DNA of 26,646 bases from a virus, in the IMG/VR virus record IMGVR_UViG_3300036781_000675, positions 1 through 26,646 of that record, one strand, 5' to 3'. The first letter of the stretch is position 1, and each line of letters starts with the position of its first letter. Position numbers and translations under genes: made by a program. A model generated the notes under the pieces. It was not told where the DNA came from, did not search any database, and was given only the letters and a program-made list of their open reading frames with translations. Below are positions 3,102-21,853 of this stretch, one piece after another.

Positions 3102-4298
3102 CTACCGCCGCGGCAGGCCCATCAGCCGCTCGAGCGGCATGGCCCCGTGCAGCAGCAGATCCGCCCACACCTGGGCCAGTTCCCGACGTCTCTCCATGTG
3201 CAGAGCCCGGTTGTAGGCAGATTCAACCGTATCCTTCGGTGAGTGTGCCAGCATGAGATCGATCACCGCGCGATCAGCGCGGTGACGTTCATTCATGATC
3301 GTCGAAAACGCCGAGCGAAAGCCATGCGGCACGTGCTGCCCTTGATATCCGGCCTGGTTCAACAGATGGCCGATCACGTTCTCCGACATGGGCCGGTGCG
3401 CATGGCGGACCGAGGGAAACAACAGTCGCCCGCGGCCGGCCAAGGTTAGCGCGCACTGCACGGTCTCAACCGCCTGGCGCGACAATGGAACCTGGTGTTC
3501 GCGGCCCATTTTGGTGCGCTCGGCCGGGATGCGCCACAGCGGCTCGGCACCGTCCAGCCGCTCGAATTCTGACCGGTCAGCGCCGCGCAGCTCGCCGCCG
3601 CGGACGGCGGTCAATGCGATCAGCCTCAGGCCAAGACGCGTCGTCGGCTGCGCCGGGACAGCATCGGCCGCGGCGAGTACCGCCCTTATCCCTGCGACGT
3701 CGATGATGGCAGCCTGCTTGCTCCTGACCGCCCGCTTTAGCGCGGGCTTCACGATCGCGGCCGGGTCCGTCTCGCACAGTCCCGACGCGATGGCGTGGAC
3801 AAACACCGCCGATACACGCTGGCGCACGCGGTGCGCCGTCTCGATCGCGCCGCGGCGCTCGATCTGACGCAGGACGTGCAGTACTTCCGGCGCGGTGATG
3901 GTCGCGATCGCCACACCGCCGAGCGTCGGAAAAATGTCTCGCTCGAGGGTGTGTATCACGTCGCGGGCGTGGATCGGTTTCCACCGCGCCTGGTGCTGCT
4001 CTTGCCAGGCGCGGGCGACGTCTTCGAAGGTGACCGCCGTCGGCTTGCGGACGAGTGCGGGGTTACGTCCCGCCTGCTTGGCCTCCCTGGCGCGATCGCG
4101 CGCCGCGCGTGCCTCGGCCAGACCGACCTCGGGATAATGCCCGACCGTCAGCGTCTGCTCTTTGCCGTCCAGGTCGTAGCGGACACGCCAGATTCTGGTG
4201 CCTGCCGGCGTGACATAGAGGTAGAGCCCATGGCTGTCGGTCAGCTTGTAGGGGCGATCCTGGCCCTTGGCTCGTCGGACTGTGGGCTCTGACAGCAA
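3102..4298 (-). CDS. int: P4-type tyrosine integrase
   Basis: 398 residues, normal for the family. The N-terminal DUF4102-type arm-binding domain (about 1-90) contains YKLTDSHGLYLYVTPAGTRI. A core-binding SAM-like domain covers about 88-175. The catalytic domain shows Arg233 in TAVRGGELRGA, Lys263 in RTKMGREHQ, the HGFR box with His325 and Arg328, His352 in LAHS, and the nucleophile Tyr362 in AYNRA. All six expected residues are present, so it should be active. The start appears to be TTG 4298: no in-frame ATG exists before an upstream stop, the N-terminus matches the family, and AAAAAAGGGA lies upstream. A perfect 10-base inverted repeat abuts the start. It carries out site-specific integration and, with AlpA, excision. 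Confidence 0.95.
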   Translation of the reverse strand: MLSEPTVRRAKGQDRPYKLTDSHGLYLYVTPAGTRIWRVRYDLDGKEQTLTVGHYPEVGLAEARAARDRAREAKQAGRNPALVRKPTAVTFEDVARAWQEQHQARWKPIHARDVIHTLERDIFPTLGGVAIATITAPEVLHVLRQIERRGAIETAHRVRQRVSAVFVHAIASGLCETDPAAIVKPALKRAVRSKQAAIIDVAGIRAVLAAADAVPAQPTTRLGLRLIALTAVRGGELRGADRSEFERLDGAEPLWRIPAERTKMGREHQVPLSRQAVETVQCALTLAGRGRLLFPSVRHAHRPMSENVIGHLLNQAGYQGQHVPHGFRSAFSTIMNERHRADRAVIDLMLAHSPKDTVESAYNRALHMERRRELAQVWADLLLHGAMPLERLMGLPRR

Positions 4299-5245: not shown

Positions 5246-5280
5246 GCTATCAAGGCGGAACCACCTTGGGGGCTCAGCCG

Positions 5281-5973
5281 ATGATCACGTGGGCGCTGAT
5301 CGCGCAAAAAGGCGGCGCGGGGAAAACCACCCTTGCGCTGCACCTTGCCTATGAGGCCGCCAGCGCGGGCAAGCGCACGCTGCTGATCGATCTGGATCAA
5401 CAGGCCTCGGCCGCGCACTGGGCGGACCGGCGCGCCGCCGACGTGGCGGTGGACTTCGGCGTTGCCGCGGGGAACTCGGGGAACATACGCGCGACAATCG
5501 CCGGCGCACGCGCGGAGGGGATCGAGATGTGCATCATTGATACCGCGCCGAACGCGGATATGGCCGGGCTCGCCGCGGCGAAGGTCGCGGACCTCGTCCT
5601 GATACCCTGCCGACCATACAGCCTCGACATCGACGCCGTCGGCGCCACCGTCGATGTCTGCCGGCTGGCGAGGCGGCCCTATCTCGTCGTGTTGAACGCC
5701 ACGCCGATCCGCTCGCGCGTGGTGGCGGAAACGCGCGAGGTCATGGAAGGTTGGGGTGCCCCGGTCTGTCCAATGGTGATCAGCGAGCGCGTGGCACTGA
5801 AGCACTGCATGACGGACGGCCGCGTGGTGCAGGAATATGAACCCCACGGCGCCGCCGCCGCTGAGATCGCCACGTTGTATCGCTACCTGACAGGGGGCAA
5901 TGCTCTCTCCTTGACCGGGCCCCGTTCGTCCCGGCAGGCCGGCGAACTGCTTTGCCCAGCCGGAGGCGTCTGA
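5281..5973 (+). CDS. parA: ParA-family partition ATPase (type Ib)
   Basis: 230 residues. The deviant Walker A motif is KGGAGKTT at residues 10-17, LLIDLDQQASA supplies the second nucleotide-binding motif near 36-46, and CIIDTAPNADMAG (about 83-95) is the Walker B region. There is no N-terminal helix-turn-helix extension, which classifies it as the short type Ib group. Such proteins form ATP-dependent gradients on the nucleoid and move a centromere-ParB complex. ATG 5281 is preferred to TTG 5266. The stop is one base before the parB-like gene, so the two form an operon, and a 56-bp tandem repeat lies directly upstream. Its presence suggests a plasmid-like phase of the element. Confidence 0.9.
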   Translation: MITWALIAQKGGAGKTTLALHLAYEAASAGKRTLLIDLDQQASAAHWADRRAADVAVDFGVAAGNSGNIRATIAGARAEGIEMCIIDTAPNADMAGLAAAKVADLVLIPCRPYSLDIDAVGATVDVCRLARRPYLVVLNATPIRSRVVAETREVMEGWGAPVCPMVISERVALKHCMTDGRVVQEYEPHGAAAAEIATLYRYLTGGNALSLTGPRSSRQAGELLCPAGGV

Positions 5974-10998: not shown

Positions 10999-11349
10999 TC
11001 AGATGCAGCGCGCAGCATCGTCGATGCCGGCCCGTCTGGCAACCCTTCGGCCAGCCCCGGCCAGCGCCGGCGAGCGCGCGGCCAGCGTTTCGGCCAGGCC
11101 GCGCAGGCTGATGGCGTGTTTCTCATCGAACCGGCGATGCCCGAGCCGGTGCTGCTCGGGATGATGCAGCACCCCGCACAGCGGCACCGTCCACTCATCA
11201 CCGGGCTTGAGGCCCATGCCGCCGCCGCTGGCCTGGCGCACATGCGCCGCCTCCGCCCGTCCCGAGCAGCCGGCGATCGCGCAGGGCAGCGAGCGGATCC
11301 AGGCCAGGTGCGCGGGGCTGCGAAGCCCCGCGCGCTTGACGCATCTCAC
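10999..11349 (-). CDS. DUF968/HNH-like putative nuclease
   Basis: 116 residues. The N-terminal part RSLPCAIAGCSGRAEAAHVR (about 19-38) has the Cys pair and an AH motif; GLKPGDEWTVPLCGVLHHPE (about 46-65) and QHRLGHRRFDEKH supply further Cys and His. This is the layout of small phage HNH/DUF968-type nucleases. GTG 11349 overlaps the stop of the preceding gene (GTGA), so it is translationally coupled. As the last gene of the late operon it could act in DNA packaging or recombination, as HNH proteins do in other phages, but those are normally near the terminase, so this is uncertain. Confidence 0.65.
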   Translation of the reverse strand: MRCVKRAGLRSPAHLAWIRSLPCAIAGCSGRAEAAHVRQASGGGMGLKPGDEWTVPLCGVLHHPEQHRLGHRRFDEKHAISLRGLAETLAARSPALAGAGRRVARRAGIDDAARCI

Positions 11350-11996
11350 TTCGGCACGGTGACCGCGACCAGCGGCGCCCCCGCCGGCACCAGCGGCGGC
11401 GATACCGCCACGCCGGCGTCCCCGCCGGCCTGTTTGGCGGCCTGGGCGCAGATCGCATCGACCTCGGCCTTGGCCATCCCGGTGGCCAGCACCGCGATCG
11501 GTCCGCCGGCGCCGGCCGAGCCCTCGGCATCGAGCAGGCCGGCGACCATCTCGCCACCGCCATTGAGGTGGACGTAGCAGAACAGCTGGCCCTCCGGGGT
11601 CGAGGCCGCGGCGAGCAGCTTGGCCTGGTCGGCCGCGGTGCAGGCCGATAGCGACAGCGCGCCGGCGAGCAGCGCGACCAGCGCGGCCGGGGCGGCCGGG
11701 GTCTTCACCACGCCCTCGATCGGCGCCTTGGTGATGTAGCGCATGGCGTAGCCGGCCAGCAGCACGCCGCCGGCCGAGGCCACATCGACCGTGGTCGGAT
11801 CGAGGTTGAGACCGAATTTCGCGGCCAGCCAGACGATGACACCGGCAGCCAGCACGCCCACCGGCGAACGGCTGAGCAGCAGCACCTTGGGCGTCAGCGC
11901 CGCGGCCAGCGCTGGATCGGCGATGGCGGCCTTGGCCACCAGGTCGGCGGCGGATTGAGCATCAGCGATCAGCAGATCGCGCGTCGAGGCGGTCAT
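11346..11996 (-). CDS. Holin-like protein with an internal lipoprotein signal
   Basis: 216 residues from ATG 11996 (GGAG 8 bases upstream; ATGA overlap with the lysozyme-like gene). After a helical N-terminus (about 1-40) come two membrane segments, SPVGVLAAGVIVWLAAKFGL and AGGVLLAGYAMRYIT, like phage holins. A second unit then begins at an in-frame GTG (11711): VVKTPAAPAALVALLAGALS followed by LSAC, a textbook lipoprotein signal with lipobox cysteine at about residue 119. The mature part (about 119-216) is Ala/Gly-rich and ends in a beta-like tail. Genes 3' of an endolysin usually include holin and spanins. It could be one fused protein or two products from two starts. Confidence 0.7.
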   Translation of the reverse strand: MTASTRDLLIADAQSAADLVAKAAIADPALAAALTPKVLLLSRSPVGVLAAGVIVWLAAKFGLNLDPTTVDVASAGGVLLAGYAMRYITKAPIEGVVKTPAAPAALVALLAGALSLSACTAADQAKLLAAASTPEGQLFCYVHLNGGGEMVAGLLDAEGSAGAGGPIAVLATGMAKAEVDAICAQAAKQAGGDAGVAVSPPLVPAGAPLVAVTVPK

Positions 11997-12584: not shown

Positions 12585-12785
12585 CTATGACGCCGCCGGC
12601 GTGTCGCGCGCGGCAAGCCTGGCCTCGGCGGCGCGCAGCTTGATCTCGTCGTTGGTGACGGTGGCCCGCAGCGTGCCGATGGTGGCCTTCTGGCTCCATC
12701 GGATGATGCCCTCGCGCAGCACCAGCACCATTGCCAACGCCGCCACGGCGACGCCGCAGAAGGCCAGCGCGAGATAGTTCATCAT
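12585..12785 (-). CDS. Small membrane-anchored coiled protein (i-spanin-like)
   Basis: 66 residues from ATG 12785. One N-terminal membrane segment, YLALAFCGVAVAALAMVLVL, is followed by a basic patch and a helix TNDEIKLRAAEARLAAR with heptad spacing. This N-terminal anchor plus coiled tail is the shape of short inner-membrane spanins and of phage Rz-like proteins. It lies directly downstream of the fibre gene (11-base gap) and upstream of the lysozyme-like gene. The larger overlapping frame to 13082 is a shadow of the fibre gene. Confidence 0.55.
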   Translation of the reverse strand: MMNYLALAFCGVAVAALAMVLVLREGIIRWSQKATIGTLRATVTNDEIKLRAAEARLAARDTPAAS

Positions 12786-15173: not shown

Positions 15174-15416
15174 CTAAACGGCGGCGAGTCGCGGCGGCGT
15201 GGAGACCGGGGCGGTGCGCCGGCCGGCCGGTGGGCGCACGGTGGGCCGCGCAATCCGGCCGGGATCGCCGCCCATGTCGCTCGCCGGCTCGCCGGCGGCG
15301 GTCAGCATGATCCAGTCGAGCGGGGCGCCCAGCACCACGCCAGGGGCGCTGTCCTGGCTCTGCGCTGCTTCGCCGCCGGCGGTAGCCATGGTCTGCGAGG
15401 CCGGGGTTACGAGCAT
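15174..15416 (-). CDS. Small hypothetical protein
   Basis: 80 residues from ATG 15416, with GGAG 4-5 bases upstream. Mostly Ala/Pro/Gly-rich with LGAPLDWIMLTAAGEPASD in the middle and a basic, proline-rich C-terminus; probably flexible. It overlaps the preceding small membrane gene by 10 bases and ends 9 bases before the fibre-adaptor-like gene. No family recognised. Confidence 0.5.
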   Translation of the reverse strand: MLVTPASQTMATAGGEAAQSQDSAPGVVLGAPLDWIMLTAAGEPASDMGGDPGRIARPTVRPPAGRRTAPVSTPPRLAAV

Positions 15417-15532
15417 GCCGCTCCACCACCCAACAGCACGATGCCGAGCCAGAAGCCGCCGGCGACGCCGATCAGGCCCCAGATCACCGCGCACTTCCAC
15501 GGCGTGACCGGGTTGCAGCCGGTCACGCGCAT
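15407..15532 (-). CDS. 41-residue membrane peptide
   Basis: The frame starts at ATG 15532, overlapping the previous stop by one base (TGATG). After a polar head MRVTGCNPVTPWKC comes one strong membrane segment, AVIWGLIGVAGGFWLGIVLL. The tight overlaps on both sides (one base and ten bases) argue that it is translated. Small single-span phage proteins between tail genes may belong to the lysis system, but no family is recognised. Confidence 0.5.
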   Translation of the reverse strand: MRVTGCNPVTPWKCAVIWGLIGVAGGFWLGIVLLGGGAACS

Positions 15533-15852
15533 CAGTGCAGCGGCAACAGGCTGTGGCCGCTGGCCAACAGGGCTCCGCCAAGCCCGGCCAGCATCCCGCC
15601 GAACAGAGCCCCGCCGGCCCACAGCAGGAGCTTCGAAAAATTGCGTGTCCGAGTGCGCCATTGCCTTACAAACTCCACGTCTTCGCGCAGCGCCTTCAGC
15701 CCCTCCTCCTTGCGAAGGTTGTATCCAAGCAGCAGCGCGAAATCCAAAATGTCATCCGGTATCAGGTCACCCATCTCCGACGCCGGGCGCGATGCCTGAC
15801 TGGCGGAGGCGGGTAGCCGTTTCTCGTGTGAGCTGCTGGTCATTGGCCCCAT
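15532..15852 (-). CDS. Membrane-anchored helical protein (XhlA/holin-accessory-like shape)
   Basis: 106 residues from ATG 15852, or 103 from ATG 15843; neither has a strong Shine-Dalgarno. The centre is helical (ILDFALLLGYNLRKEEGLKA, then VEFVRQWRTRTRNFSK), and the C-terminus is a glycine-rich membrane hairpin, LLLWAGGALFGGMLAGLGGA. A soluble helix followed by a C-terminal membrane segment is the shape of XhlA-like accessory lysis proteins. It is coupled to the 41-residue membrane peptide that follows. Confidence 0.5.
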   Translation of the reverse strand: MGPMTSSSHEKRLPASASQASRPASEMGDLIPDDILDFALLLGYNLRKEEGLKALREDVEFVRQWRTRTRNFSKLLLWAGGALFGGMLAGLGGALLASGHSLLPLH

Positions 15853-16285: not shown

Positions 16286-16700
16286 CGATGGTAATGCTCC
16301 AGGGCAGCCATGCCGGGTCGGCGGTGACGCTCACCAGCAGAGCGCCCGGATGATCGCAGGTGAGGATGATGCTGCCGCCGGTGACCGGGGTGGGGTCGGC
16401 CGTCAGCGCGCCGGAGATCGACACCACGCACGGATCGGGCAGCGCGGAGATGGTCGCCGCGGCGACACCGTCGGCGGTGATCGTGGTGGCGTCGGCGCTG
16501 GCCGTCATCGCCGCTTTCGCGGTGACCACGCCGGCGGCGACATAGTTCTGCTGGATGTAGGCCAACAGCGCCACCGGGAACTTGTCGATGGCGAGCAGCG
16601 TCTGCCCGCTGTCCACCGGCTGGGAGGCGAGCATGTCGTCGGGGCAGGTGCCGAGCCCGACGATGGCGCCGCTCGCATCGTATTTGACGAAGGCGCTCAT
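16275..16700 (-). CDS. Small tail-region protein with Ig-like C-terminus
   Basis: 141 residues from ATG 16700, which overlaps the stop of the I-J gene (ATGA). Residues 1-55 include SAFVKYDASGAIVGLGTCPD and a helix; residues 60-141 are a Thr/Ala/Val-rich beta segment (VVSISGALTADPTPVTGGSI) like an Ig-like or big-domain fold found in phage decoration and fibre proteins. No exact family recognised. Coupled translation with the tip protein suggests a tail-tip or fibre role. Confidence 0.55.
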   Translation of the reverse strand: MSAFVKYDASGAIVGLGTCPDDMLASQPVDSGQTLLAIDKFPVALLAYIQQNYVAAGVVTAKAAMTASADATTITADGVAAATISALPDPCVVSISGALTADPTPVTGGSIILTCDHPGALLVSVTADPAWLPWSITIDAV

Positions 16701-19700
16701 CGTTTCACCACCAGCGCACCGAGCATGGCGAATGCAAAGTCGATGGGGCCATTGTTCGACAGCGCCAGCGTGTAGCTGCCGGGATCGAGGTTGAGGACAT
16801 AAAAGCCGGTTGGCACGCCGACCTGCGAGGCGCCGTCGCCGACCACGGCCACCGAGTAGAACAGGCTGCCGTTGAGCAGCAGGGTCGCCGACTGGGTGGT
16901 CCAATTCGATGCGGTGATGGCGGTGAACCAGAGCAGGATCGGCGATCCGTCGGTGGCAATCGTCATCGAGACCGTGGTCGCGAGAGTGGCGACACTGGCA
17001 TAGAGGTTGGTCACCGCCTGGCTGGCGATGTTGATTGTTCCCACAGCGAGATGAGCGATGTTCGCCGTGTCCACGACGAGGCTGCCGATCTGCGCCGAGT
17101 TGGTCAGCTGGAAGTCGGAGGCGAGCAGGTTGGTGTGGATCGAGCCGGCAGCTATTTCCGTAGCCGAAACGGCCCCGGCCGAAATGGTTCCCGCCGTCAC
17201 GGCGTTCGCAGCGATGGTTCCGGCCGTCACCGCGTTGGCCGCGAGCTTCCCCGCGGTCACACTGCCCGCCGAAAGTTCCGTCGCCGTAATTGCCCCGGCG
17301 GCGATCTGCGAGGAGGTTATCGAGTCCGCAACGATCGCGCTGGCGTCCAGCGTTCCGGTCTTCACCATCGAGCCGGAAATCGTCGTCACCCCGCCGGGCA
17401 CCCAGGCCTGCGGCTGGGTGGCGTTGGCCACCGAGGCGCCGATCGCGGTCTGGGTGAAGAACAGGTAGGGCGGCGTTGTCTGTGCGGCGATGTCCGAGCC
17501 GCCATCATTGAAGCCGGCCGCCAACAGGCGCACGCGGCCACAGTTCGCCGGCGAGATCCCATGCACCCAGCTGAGGGCGTAGTTCGCCAGGTCGTTGCCG
17601 AAGGCACCCGGCACGGTGACCCGGTTGCCGGTGATCGAGCTGATGAAGGTGCCGGCGGCGGTGTAGAAATCGATTTGCACGCGCGCGCAGCAGCGATGGG
17701 TCAGCAGATGCGCCTGCGCCTCGATCGGGGTGCTGGCCGGAAACGGCACACCGATCAGGCTGCCGGTGTCGGCGGCATTCGGGTCCCAGTAGGCCAGCAG
17801 AAACTGCGAGCTGTCGGTAGCCAGATTGGCCGCCGCCTGGATGTATCCCGAGCCGTAGCCGGCGATGCGGTAATCCGGATCGTAGGCGGTGCCCTTGACG
17901 GTGCCGAAGCCGGCCATCGCGACCGAGGCGGCGATGTTCCAGCCGGCCGCGGATTGCTCCAGGCAGGCGTTCCAGACCACGTTGCTGGCGCTGCCGACGG
18001 AGAGTTTTTCGGTGGTCACAGCGCCGGCGGCGAGGGTGCCGGCGGTCACCGCGGCGGTGGCAATTTTCGGGGTGGTGATTCCGCCATCCGATATCTGGGT
18101 GGTGGTGATCTGGCCGGTGATTTTGGTCGCCGCCAGGGCTGCGATCTGGGCATCGGTCAGCTGGCCGGTGATTTTGGTCGCCGCCAGGGCCGCGATCTGG
18201 GCATCGGTCAGCTGGCCGGTCAGGTCGACCGCGCTGACCACGGCGTTGTAGTCATGATTGGCGCCGAAAACGCCGGTGCCGGTGGCGACGCGGCGGTACA
18301 GTTTGCTGTCGGTCTCGCTGACCACGTTGCCGCCGATCGGCACCGGGTTGCCGTCGAGGTCGGTGATCACATTGAGCGTGGCCACGATCGCCACCGGCGC
18401 CACCGACTGGGCGAATTTCGCGGTGTTGACGATGGCGTCGGCGAGATCGTCGGTGAGCAGCAGCGTCGTCGTGGCCGAGGCCGGCCCGGCGAAGGTGCCA
18501 AGCACCAGCGGCGCGCCGAGCGCGATCGCGCGCACCCAGTAATACCAGGTGGTGTCGGGCAGCAGCACGGAATGCTCGTTATCGACGTAGGACAGGCCAC
18601 CGGCGACGCTGAGCAGGGCGGCGCCCGATCCCGGGCCGGCCGACGTCGAATTGCGCCAGATCTCGTACTGGATGATGTCGCGCCGCGTGGTGTCGGCGAG
18701 CCAGGAGACCTGCACGCTGCGGGTGGCGCCGACCGCGGTCAGGCCGGTGGGCGCGGCTGGCGGATCGACCTTGCCGTCAACCGTGATCGGGGCGGTGATC
18801 AGCGCCCATTCCGAGGTCAGGCCGCCGGCGCCGACCGAGCGCACGCCGAAGGTGTACTCGTCCCCGGCCGGCAGGTTGTCGATGATGAAGGTCACCGCCC
18901 AGGGGACCGAATAGATCTGGTAGAAGTTGTCGGAGCTGGCGACGACCTGGAAACTGGCGATGCGCGGATCCACCGGCGCGGACCAGGACACGGTGACGCG
19001 GATGGTCTGCGACACGCCGACGCCGGTCATGTTGTCGATCGCGGCGACATTGGTGGGCGCCGGCAGCGGGGCGGTCAGCAGCGCCGGCAGCAGCGAATAG
19101 TTCGGGACGTCGAAGGCGATGTTGTCTTCGATGAAATCGAACTTGCCCGCCTCATAATTGACCGCGGTGACGGTGAGCTGGGCCTTGTCGGTCTCGGCGA
19201 TGCCCAGGATGGAGAACTCGCGTGGCGACACGACATTGTCGGTCATGATCCACTCGGCGTTGGGCAGCGGGGTCTGCGCCATGTCGCGCCCGAGCGTGAC
19301 GATGGTGTAGGTGCCGTCGCCCGAGGTGGCGAAGCCGGTGATCGGGATCAGATCGTCCACCGTGCCGTCGGGCATCACCACCGACAGCGACTGCGAGGTC
19401 GAGCCGTCGGAAATCACTAGCAGAGCGTCTAGCCAGGCCACCGACAGCGAGCCGCTCGGGCGCAACCGCCCGGCCATGCGCACGCCGATATAGGCCGGGT
19501 CGGAGACCTTCACGACGTCGCCGGGGCGGGCGTCGATGTGGTAGGCGCCGCCCTTCCAGGTCGCCGTCTCGGTCTGGCGCGTCTCGGTGTAGAGCGCCCA
19601 TTTGCCGAGCCGGTGGGCGAGCGAGCGGGTGATGCACCCGAACGCCATCAGATCGGTGGAGACCACCCCGCGCTTGGCGATATCGAACGGATCGCTGACC

Positions 19701-21853
19701 GGTTCGACCGCCGGCAGGAACTGGTTGGAGCTGTCGAGATACTGGACGTTGACCAGGTTGTGGCGGGTCTTGAGGCTGGTCGACTGATAGTCGAAGGTGC
19801 CGTCGAGGACGTTGGTCTGGTTGATCAGTTTGGACGGCGTGCGCGGCATGTCCGCGACCACCATCACCTGGCCGTTGCCCCAGTAGGTCTGGCCGCGGAA
19901 CGCCGCGCAGAACAGTTGCAGCTGGCGGTAGGCGTCATCCTGGCTGGCGACGATGCAGTTGACCGCATAGCGCCGTTCGGTGCCGCCGAAGCCATCTGGC
20001 ACGACACCGTCGCAGTACTGCCCGATCTGGTAGAGATCGGCCTTGGTGGTCTGCAGGTAGGTGTCGGGGATGCCGCAGCCGTAGCGGCTGTTGCTGAGCA
20101 GATCGAGGATCTGCCAGGCCGGGTTGGACACCGGGCGCTGGATCGTGCTGGTCAGATCCCAGGTGCCGCCGAAGGTGCCGGTGCCGCTCGAGGAATAGCC
20201 GCCGGTCACCGGGTCGTAATTGGCCGGCACCGCGACGGTGCGCCCGTAGATCTCGACCTGGCGCGTCGGCAGCGAGCTGCCGAACAGCGAGGCGTCGAAG
20301 GTGTAGGCGATGTAGGCGGTGTTGGGGTAGCTCAGCTTGTGATCGTCGATGACGTCGAGGCGCTCGAAGATCGTGTCGGACTGGATGTTGACGACGTCGG
20401 TGCTGTCGCCGGTGATGCGGGTGACGCGGATGTCCCAGGTGTCGGCGCCGTCGCCGGCGCGCGGCAGATCGAAGCGGGTGGACTTTTCGTAGCTCGAGGA
20501 CGCCTTCGCCTTGGCGAGGATGATGTGCTCGACCAGCTGGTAGTCGCCGACGAAGCCGGGGCCGCTGGCGCGCACCTCGATGTCGTAGGCAAGTTCGTCG
20601 AGCGCGTTGACGTCGCCGTTGTAATGGTTGATCGACAACAACGCCGGCATCAGCATGGTCACCCGCGCGGCGGTGGCCGAGCTGCCGGTGATCGTCTGCA
20701 CCACCGGGTTGGCCTGCTTGACCTGGCGCTGGACCGGGACGCTGTCTTCGGAGGCCGGGAACCCCGAGACCGGATCCTGGTCGGGGTAGCCGTAGCGGAC
20801 CTCCCAGCTCACCCCGCGGAAATTGTAGGCGCCAGAGGCGGCCTGCAGCGGGGTGCCATTGAAGAAGATGCTCTTGGCGCCGTCGACCAGGCCGCCGATC
20901 GGCCCCTCGCCCAGCACGTCGATGATCCGCACCACGGCGTTGGAGTGCAGCGTATCGGGCTGCACGAAGCCGCCGCTGCCGCCGCCCTTGCCGCCGCCGC
21001 CTGAACCGGTGCCGAACACGGCGGTGGCCTGGGTGCCGGCGATCGGCGCGATGAGCCCGGTGGACCCGGCCATCTGGGTGGTGCCGCCGGCCAGCGTGGT
21101 GCCACCCACCGGCGGCACCGGGAAGGTCTCGCCGGGCGGCGGAAACCCTTGATACGGATTGTTTGGGTCGATGTATTCCGGCGGGTGGAAATCCTCCGCC
21201 GAGTAGCCGATCGAGGCGACGATCGAGCCGACCCGCATGCGCCCATAGACGATCGGCACCGGGGTGCCCTGCTGCGAGGTGTTGGACAGGCCGCCCAGCA
21301 GGAACGATGAGATGGTGCCGTTCTGGCGCGGCTGCGGGCTGATCGCCTGCAGGATCCCGCCCAGGATCATCGCGCCGCCGGCCAAGGCCACGCTGCCGAT
21401 AGTGACGCCGCCGAACAGCGCGGTGCCGAAGCCGTAGGCCGCCGCGGTGCCGGCGGTGGTGCCGGCGGCGGCCGACAGGCCGAGATAGCCGGCGACCTCG
21501 GGCTGCATCAGCACGATCGAGGCAGCGACCAGCAGCACGCCGACGATGATCTTGCCGCCGCCGCCCTTGCTGCCCTTGGCGCACGGGATGAGATGCAATT
21601 CCCCGCTCGGCGGCAGGCGCAATGACAGGCCGTGCGCCGGCAGGTCGACGCCGTTGCCCAGGGTGCCGCGACGGACGTGATACTGGCCCTTGCGCAGTTC
21701 GTCCTCGAAGCCCGGGACCATCTTGCACAGCGCGTAGGTCGCCGCCGCCGGCGTGCTGACACCGAGGCGGAATTCCACCCCGAACTTCTTGCGCAGCCGC
21801 CCGTGCAGGACGATGCGCGCGGTCCCGGCGACGACGTCGATGTTATGCGCCAT
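16697..21853 (-). CDS. J: Fused tail tip proteins I and J (host specificity protein)
   Basis: 1718 residues. Residues 1-215 match lambda tail protein I: GTARIVLHGRLRKKFGVEFR, a glycine-rich membrane-like hairpin (about 101-170) and GTPVPIVYGRMRVGSIVAS. A Gly/Pro linker (about 225-295) with GSGGGGKGGGSGG leads to the J body, with VLGEGPIGGLVDGAKSIFFN, IGQYCDGVVPDGFGGTE and DLMAFGCITRSLAHRLGKWA. Two fibronectin-III-like domains lie near 925-1130, a 17-residue tandem repeat at 1215-1248, a carbohydrate-module-like stretch (NACLEQSAAGWNIAAS) near 1290-1490 and decapeptide AVTAGTI-type repeats near 1505-1575. It should form the tail tip and contact the host receptor. It overlaps K by 11 bases. Confidence 0.93.
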   Translation of the reverse strand: MAHNIDVVAGTARIVLHGRLRKKFGVEFRLGVSTPAAATYALCKMVPGFEDELRKGQYHVRRGTLGNGVDLPAHGLSLRLPPSGELHLIPCAKGSKGGGGKIIVGVLLVAASIVLMQPEVAGYLGLSAAAGTTAGTAAAYGFGTALFGGVTIGSVALAGGAMILGGILQAISPQPRQNGTISSFLLGGLSNTSQQGTPVPIVYGRMRVGSIVASIGYSAEDFHPPEYIDPNNPYQGFPPPGETFPVPPVGGTTLAGGTTQMAGSTGLIAPIAGTQATAVFGTGSGGGGKGGGSGGFVQPDTLHSNAVVRIIDVLGEGPIGGLVDGAKSIFFNGTPLQAASGAYNFRGVSWEVRYGYPDQDPVSGFPASEDSVPVQRQVKQANPVVQTITGSSATAARVTMLMPALLSINHYNGDVNALDELAYDIEVRASGPGFVGDYQLVEHIILAKAKASSSYEKSTRFDLPRAGDGADTWDIRVTRITGDSTDVVNIQSDTIFERLDVIDDHKLSYPNTAYIAYTFDASLFGSSLPTRQVEIYGRTVAVPANYDPVTGGYSSSGTGTFGGTWDLTSTIQRPVSNPAWQILDLLSNSRYGCGIPDTYLQTTKADLYQIGQYCDGVVPDGFGGTERRYAVNCIVASQDDAYRQLQLFCAAFRGQTYWGNGQVMVVADMPRTPSKLINQTNVLDGTFDYQSTSLKTRHNLVNVQYLDSSNQFLPAVEPVSDPFDIAKRGVVSTDLMAFGCITRSLAHRLGKWALYTETRQTETATWKGGAYHIDARPGDVVKVSDPAYIGVRMAGRLRPSGSLSVAWLDALLVISDGSTSQSLSVVMPDGTVDDLIPITGFATSGDGTYTIVTLGRDMAQTPLPNAEWIMTDNVVSPREFSILGIAETDKAQLTVTAVNYEAGKFDFIEDNIAFDVPNYSLLPALLTAPLPAPTNVAAIDNMTGVGVSQTIRVTVSWSAPVDPRIASFQVVASSDNFYQIYSVPWAVTFIIDNLPAGDEYTFGVRSVGAGGLTSEWALITAPITVDGKVDPPAAPTGLTAVGATRSVQVSWLADTTRRDIIQYEIWRNSTSAGPGSGAALLSVAGGLSYVDNEHSVLLPDTTWYYWVRAIALGAPLVLGTFAGPASATTTLLLTDDLADAIVNTAKFAQSVAPVAIVATLNVITDLDGNPVPIGGNVVSETDSKLYRRVATGTGVFGANHDYNAVVSAVDLTGQLTDAQIAALAATKITGQLTDAQIAALAATKITGQITTTQISDGGITTPKIATAAVTAGTLAAGAVTTEKLSVGSASNVVWNACLEQSAAGWNIAASVAMAGFGTVKGTAYDPDYRIAGYGSGYIQAAANLATDSSQFLLAYWDPNAADTGSLIGVPFPASTPIEAQAHLLTHRCCARVQIDFYTAAGTFISSITGNRVTVPGAFGNDLANYALSWVHGISPANCGRVRLLAAGFNDGGSDIAAQTTPPYLFFTQTAIGASVANATQPQAWVPGGVTTISGSMVKTGTLDASAIVADSITSSQIAAGAITATELSAGSVTAGKLAANAVTAGTIAANAVTAGTISAGAVSATEIAAGSIHTNLLASDFQLTNSAQIGSLVVDTANIAHLAVGTINIASQAVTNLYASVATLATTVSMTIATDGSPILLWFTAITASNWTTQSATLLLNGSLFYSVAVVGDGASQVGVPTGFYVLNLDPGSYTLALSNNGPIDFAFAMLGALVVKR
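18110..18211. repeat. 51-bp tandem repeat inside gene J
   Basis: Two adjacent copies (18110-18160 and 18161-18211) differ at one base and a third starts with CTGGCCGGT. Each encodes the 17-residue unit LTDAQIAALAATKITGQ. Near identity at the DNA level indicates recent duplication by slippage within a fibre-like segment. Confidence 0.8.

Follow-up and report, generated by a model that had tools for sequence, protein, structure and literature searches.

The locus described here raises the question of whether a single reading frame of a phage can encode two lysis proteins, a holin-like membrane protein from its first start codon and a lipoprotein from an internal in-frame start. The window, meaning the whole 26,646-base stretch of DNA that was analysed, is a virus record of IMG/VR type from a phage with a tyrosine integrase and lambda-like tail genes, having its late operon on the minus strand. 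At the 3' end of this operon, an SGNH-hydrolase-like gene is followed by one for a 66-aa membrane protein, then by a lysozyme-like gene and the target ORF, with a DUF968/HNH-like gene last. The host is probably an alphaproteobacterium, because the relatives of the HNH gene on named plasmids belong chiefly to Methylobacterium, Azospirillum, Sphingomonas and acetic acid bacteria, together with some Streptomyces. The record also contains a ParA-like ATPase (5266-5973, plus strand) in addition to the integrase (3102-4298, minus strand), possibly reflecting the partition function of a plasmid-like prophage. On the minus strand, a single 1718-aa ORF (16697-21853) matches both the phrog_32 tail assembly family (residues 11-221) and phrog_31, the tail tip protein J; these are usually separate genes, and the ORF is an apparent I/J fusion. 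Among the tail genes (15407-15852, minus strand), there are two small single-span membrane-protein ORFs of 106 aa and 41 aa (ATG 15532), which are further holin candidates, having a positive coding score for the 41-aa version only.

The target ORF, reported at 11346-11996 by the first-pass annotation, is real and was corrected here to the minus strand (Table 1). Its ATG overlaps the stop codon of the lysozyme-like gene as ATGA (11996-11993). Codon statistics derived from the remaining late genes favoured the same frame from 11996 to approximately 11360 and disfavoured the other two, and the first half of the ORF is coding. This one-frame signal therefore excludes a frameshift within the ORF, except in the last ~10 codons before 11708, a stretch too short to be judged by codon statistics on its own. 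Inside the ORF, GTG 11708 overlaps an other-frame TGA (11707-11705) as GTGA (11705-11708, minus strand), in a style like that of the ATGA at its beginning. The structure model of the ORF from its single sequence was of low confidence (mean pLDDT 46), too uncertain for fold searches.

Table 1. Target ORF, its parts and its neighbours, with positions in the window.
Feature	Position	Strand	Basis or remark
Full ORF, 216 aa: holin-like N-terminal half and putative lipoprotein C-terminal half	11346..11996	-	ATG 11996 to stop 11346; single-frame coding signal
First membrane segment, approximately residues 38-62	11811..11885	-	Hydropathy 1.84; helix 45-61 in low-confidence model
Claimed second membrane segment, approximately residues 71-89, weak	11730..11786	-	Below hydropathy cut-off 1.3; helix 75-89 in low-confidence model
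GAGG, Shine-Dalgarno-like	11714..11717	-	5 nt before GTG 11708
Two in-frame GTG codons, 11711 and 11708	11706..11711	-	11708 the better candidate start
Lipoprotein signal peptide MKTPAAPAALVALLAGALSLSA	11643..11708	-	Pattern test
Putative mature lipoprotein, 98 aa, Cys119 first, Thr at +2, Cys142 and Cys183, Pro-containing tail	11349..11642	-	Translation
Lysozyme-like (GH24) gene, 160 aa, without canonical catalytic residues	11993..12475	-	PF00959 E=4.8e-16; alignments
66-aa protein, N-terminal membrane segment, possible i-spanin partner	12585..12785	-	Hydropathy 2.81; coding score

Two membrane segments of holin style had been claimed for the N-terminal half. The first of these is clear; however, the second falls under the hydropathy cut-off used for membrane segments and is helical only in the low-confidence model. 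The sole holin profile matched by the whole protein was phrog_9752 (E=0.028), and when the N-terminal half was searched alone, this match was lost and no holin profile was left. Searches of the protein against Pfam and NCBIfam gave no holin-family match, and a search of the phrog_9752 holin family itself gave weak matches only. The assignment of the first half as a holin is weak, having as its main support position and size, that is, a small protein with at least one transmembrane segment (one clear and one weak) in the lysis block, adjoining the lysozyme-like gene.

The lipobox LSAC noted earlier, with its cysteine at residue 119 and far from the N-terminus, is borne out in the 216-aa translation. 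From GTG 11708, the target reads MKTPAAPAALVALLAGALSLSAC followed by TAADQ, which is a complete lipoprotein signal. Counted from this codon, it has Lys at position 2 (K2), an h-region without charge and the lipobox cysteine at position 23 (Cys23, equal to Cys119 of the full ORF), as in the lipobox signal of an o-spanin, provided that the start there is used. According to the rule derived from E. coli, the lack of Asp at +2 leads to outer-membrane sorting; the target has Thr at this position, and this residue together with the two further cysteines would fit an o-spanin-like outer-membrane lipoprotein.

The chance level of such a feature was evaluated by scanning for lipoprotein signals, defined by a PROSITE-style rule, that begin at an in-frame start inside an ORF and have a Shine-Dalgarno sequence (SD). 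Of 5000 codon-shuffled copies of the target, 0.18% contained the combination, as did 0.02% of random ORFs built with the codon usage of this phage; these percentages overstate the surprise somewhat because the earlier reader had chosen the feature out of many. Without the SD requirement, the lipoprotein signal was found in 3.0% of the codon shuffles and 0.9% of the random ORFs. The scan was passed by 3 of the 2555 ORFs of related loci, two of which (L003 and L091) look like ordinary Rz1-type o-spanins in a frame that, by chance, stays open upstream, the upstream part being non-hydrophobic. In the 26.6-kb window, the target site is the only signal of this lipoprotein pattern in any frame, on either strand and from any start. 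The internal lipoprotein signal with SD in the target ORF is beyond chance.

Regarding the start codon, GTG 11711 with a nearby GAGG had been suggested by the first-pass annotation. Both elements are present; however, 11711 lies only 2 nt from the GAGG, which is too close, and 11708 is the better start because of its spacing of 5 nt. The anti-SD duplex energy was -6.4 kcal/mol for GTG 11708, compared with -5.9 kcal/mol for the lysozyme-like gene and -6.9 kcal/mol for the target's own ATG, and 11%-19% of internal in-frame start codons match the pairing of 11708 about equally. A simplified, RBS-calculator-style initiation estimate, which differs from the published calculator, gave 17.4 for GTG 11708, 18.0 for the lysozyme-like gene and 19.3 for the 66-aa gene. 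On the same simplified scale, internal in-frame starts have a median of 21.7 and a 25th percentile of 17.0, so that GTG 11708 is no outlier and does not rise clearly above the background of its own gene. ATG 11744 of the same ORF has a better estimate (13.0), yet without a recognisable SD. Taken from these sequence features, initiation at GTG 11708 would be plausible.

The full ORF and its halves were searched in phages, plasmids, IMG/VR viral contigs, GTDB contigs and approximately 500 sampled alphaproteobacterial genomes, and no confirmed homologue was found. A tblastn search of 50,697 phage and 72,556 plasmid records detected no relative of the target and gave one hit at E=2; it was more sensitive than the scans of IMG/VR and GTDB, which were pattern-seeded and would miss distant relatives. 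The weak matches inspected were unrelated genes or off-frame sequence. Searches seeded with the neighbouring lysozyme-like, SGNH-like, tail L, 304-aa and HNH proteins found no relative carrying the target, and the relatives of tail protein J (80 viral and 12 genomic, best identity 40%) contained it in none. A DNA-level search of the lysis region gave no match. The sequence arrangement of this single orphan gene is real and unusual, with an adequate candidate for a second start.

In the adjoining lysozyme-like protein, the positions of T4 Glu11, Asp20 and Thr26 correspond to His20, Ala29 and Ala35, whereas close relatives keep the catalytic Glu, Asp and Thr. A weak second match in NCBIfam was to SpmX, a lysozyme-family localisation factor, and the single-sequence structure was of low confidence (mean pLDDT 43), likewise too uncertain for fold searches. 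Either the protein has other catalytic residues, or it is inactive as an endolysin, or the phage is decaying. The missing canonical residues make the lysis-cassette context weaker, and an inactive protein or a decaying phage would weaken the case for a lysis role of the target. Upstream of the lysozyme-like gene, the 66-aa protein is coding by codon statistics and has a charged remainder after its N-terminal membrane segment; no relatives of it were found. It could possibly be an i-spanin or a pinholin, and it would be the natural partner candidate if the lipoprotein is free. The combined periplasmic length of the lipoprotein and the 66-aa protein is ~140 residues, within the range of 62-300 reported in a spanin survey (PMC6139136).

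The explanation that is tentatively favoured here is that of an orphan membrane-protein/lipoprotein gene with two lysis-block products in one frame, in which the lipoprotein is made through the in-frame internal start and has a spanin role. Translation from ATG 11996 would produce the holin-like membrane protein, and a second initiation at GTG 11708, with its GAGG, would produce a 120-aa prelipoprotein. The prelipoprotein would be exported, lipidated at Cys23 and presumably targeted to the outer membrane. There it may serve as the outer member of a spanin pair, with the 66-aa membrane protein as a possible partner. In favour of two products are the coding frame shared by the two halves, a lipoprotein signal that is complete, has an SD and is the only one of its pattern in the window, and the place of the target directly after the lysozyme-like gene. 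The spanin role is suggested by this position, the outer-membrane-type +2 residue, the cysteines and the status of sole lipoprotein candidate of its pattern in the window. On the other side, in the collections searched no homologue showed the start or the fusion to be conserved, and no holin profile was significant. The broader claim, that one frame in a Gram-negative phage encodes a membrane-permeabilising protein as well as its outer-membrane lipoprotein, through either an internal start or a lipoprotein signal peptidase cut, is possible and rather doubtful.

The same sequence could also correspond to a single membrane protein, in which the "signal peptide" would be a further transmembrane helix, the lipobox would be fortuitous and the C-terminal 98 residues would be tethered in the periplasm. 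The charged residues R86, K90 and K98 ahead of the last hydrophobic stretch would give an N-in/C-out orientation without a second start, and the unexceptional initiation estimate at GTG 11708 and the lipoprotein-type signals in ~3% of the codon shuffles when the SD is not required are in line with this explanation. However, a strict lipobox, an uncharged h-region, a well-spaced SD and an outer-membrane-type +2 residue coincide here, in a pattern unique in the window, and a 98-aa periplasmic tail behind the last helix would be unusual for a holin; a single membrane protein is considered unlikely. Alternatively, one precursor could be modified by Lgt and then cut by signal peptidase II at Cys119, so that a single translation product supplies both an inner-membrane protein and a lipoprotein. 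The first-pass annotation had held that an internal lipobox cannot be processed, which is not secure; in principle, a correctly facing tethered signal helix could meet Lgt/LspA. The topology predicted from the charges puts the lipobox at the periplasmic face, like that of a normal signal peptide, and the intact lipobox would be explained without a strong internal start. However, the signal helix would stay on the first half and no bacterial precedent was found in a limited literature search, and such a cleavage is regarded as quite improbable.

Considerations of another kind apply to a one-base indel, either an assembly error or a real mutation, which in the last few codons before 11708 would join two ordinary genes, the first of them ending at the other-frame TGA. 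The exact overlap of this TGA with GTG 11708 is what such a junction would look like, the junction before the target ORF being likewise a 4-nt overlap. The TGA frame is open for 63 codons upstream and would yield a basic tail, RRRSRAW, and the coding plot has no resolution over the last ~10 codons. Yet an A following GTG is common by chance, the longest homopolymer nearby is GGG, and the coding score of the fused frame is high up to the junction, whereas that of the TGA frame is strongly negative over 11740-11698; an indel is judged improbable.

Unusual gene overlaps are a familiar trait of spanin genes, and gene callers often overlook o-spanins. If two products are made from the target, by an internal start or by cleavage, the attack on the inner and outer membranes would be encoded by one gene, an arrangement that the embedded, overlapped, separated and unimolecular spanin architectures do not cover. 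An in-frame lipoprotein would also couple the amounts of the two lysis proteins. Because the in-frame lipoprotein never forms its own ORF, it would escape standard annotation inside the membrane-protein gene, and arrangements of this type could account for some seemingly spanin-less phages. If the precursor is cleaved instead, lipoprotein signal peptidase would be able to use a signal located inside a multi-span protein.

Among known systems, the two-component spanins (lambda Rz/Rz1, P2 LysB/LysC and T4 PseT.3/PseT.2) resemble the target in their place in the lysis block, the small outer-membrane-type lipoprotein, the extra cysteines and the nearby candidate for a partner with an N-terminal single span, without sequence similarity between them and the target. 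Published spanin architectures are embedded (in the +1 or -1 frame), overlapped, separated or unimolecular, and do not include in-frame nesting in a membrane-protein gene (PMC6139136). The o-spanin genes described so far either are separate from the i-spanin gene or lie out of frame with it, embedded or overlapping (PMC6139136), whereas the putative lipoprotein of the target is in frame inside a holin-like gene. The unimolecular spanin T1 gp11 also has a lipobox and a membrane segment in one polypeptide; however, its order is the opposite, with the lipobox first and the transmembrane segment last, and neither it nor the other published u-spanins have Cys in the periplasmic part (PMC6139136). 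A unimolecular spanin is ruled out for the target by the segment order and by the presence of Cys142 and Cys183; its C-terminal stretch (residues 196-214) is hydrophobic but contains several prolines. Like the dual-start holins, the target would encode a membrane protein and contain at least two starts in the same frame, although the lambda S105/S107 products, holin and antiholin, differ by two residues and the second start of the target would be nearly 100 codons in. For phage endolysins, in-frame internal starts with a common stop codon are established, and the two-polypeptide endolysins (CTP1L, Ms6 LysA and others) share with the target the lysis-block location, the internal start (a candidate in the target) and the common stop codon (PMC9430671; PMC6116005). 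The short product of these endolysins is the wall-binding part of the same enzyme, whereas that of the target would be another protein class in another compartment. In this comparison, in-frame nesting of a spanin would stand outside the published architectures, and the genetic device it would use, the in-frame internal start, is one already known from endolysins.
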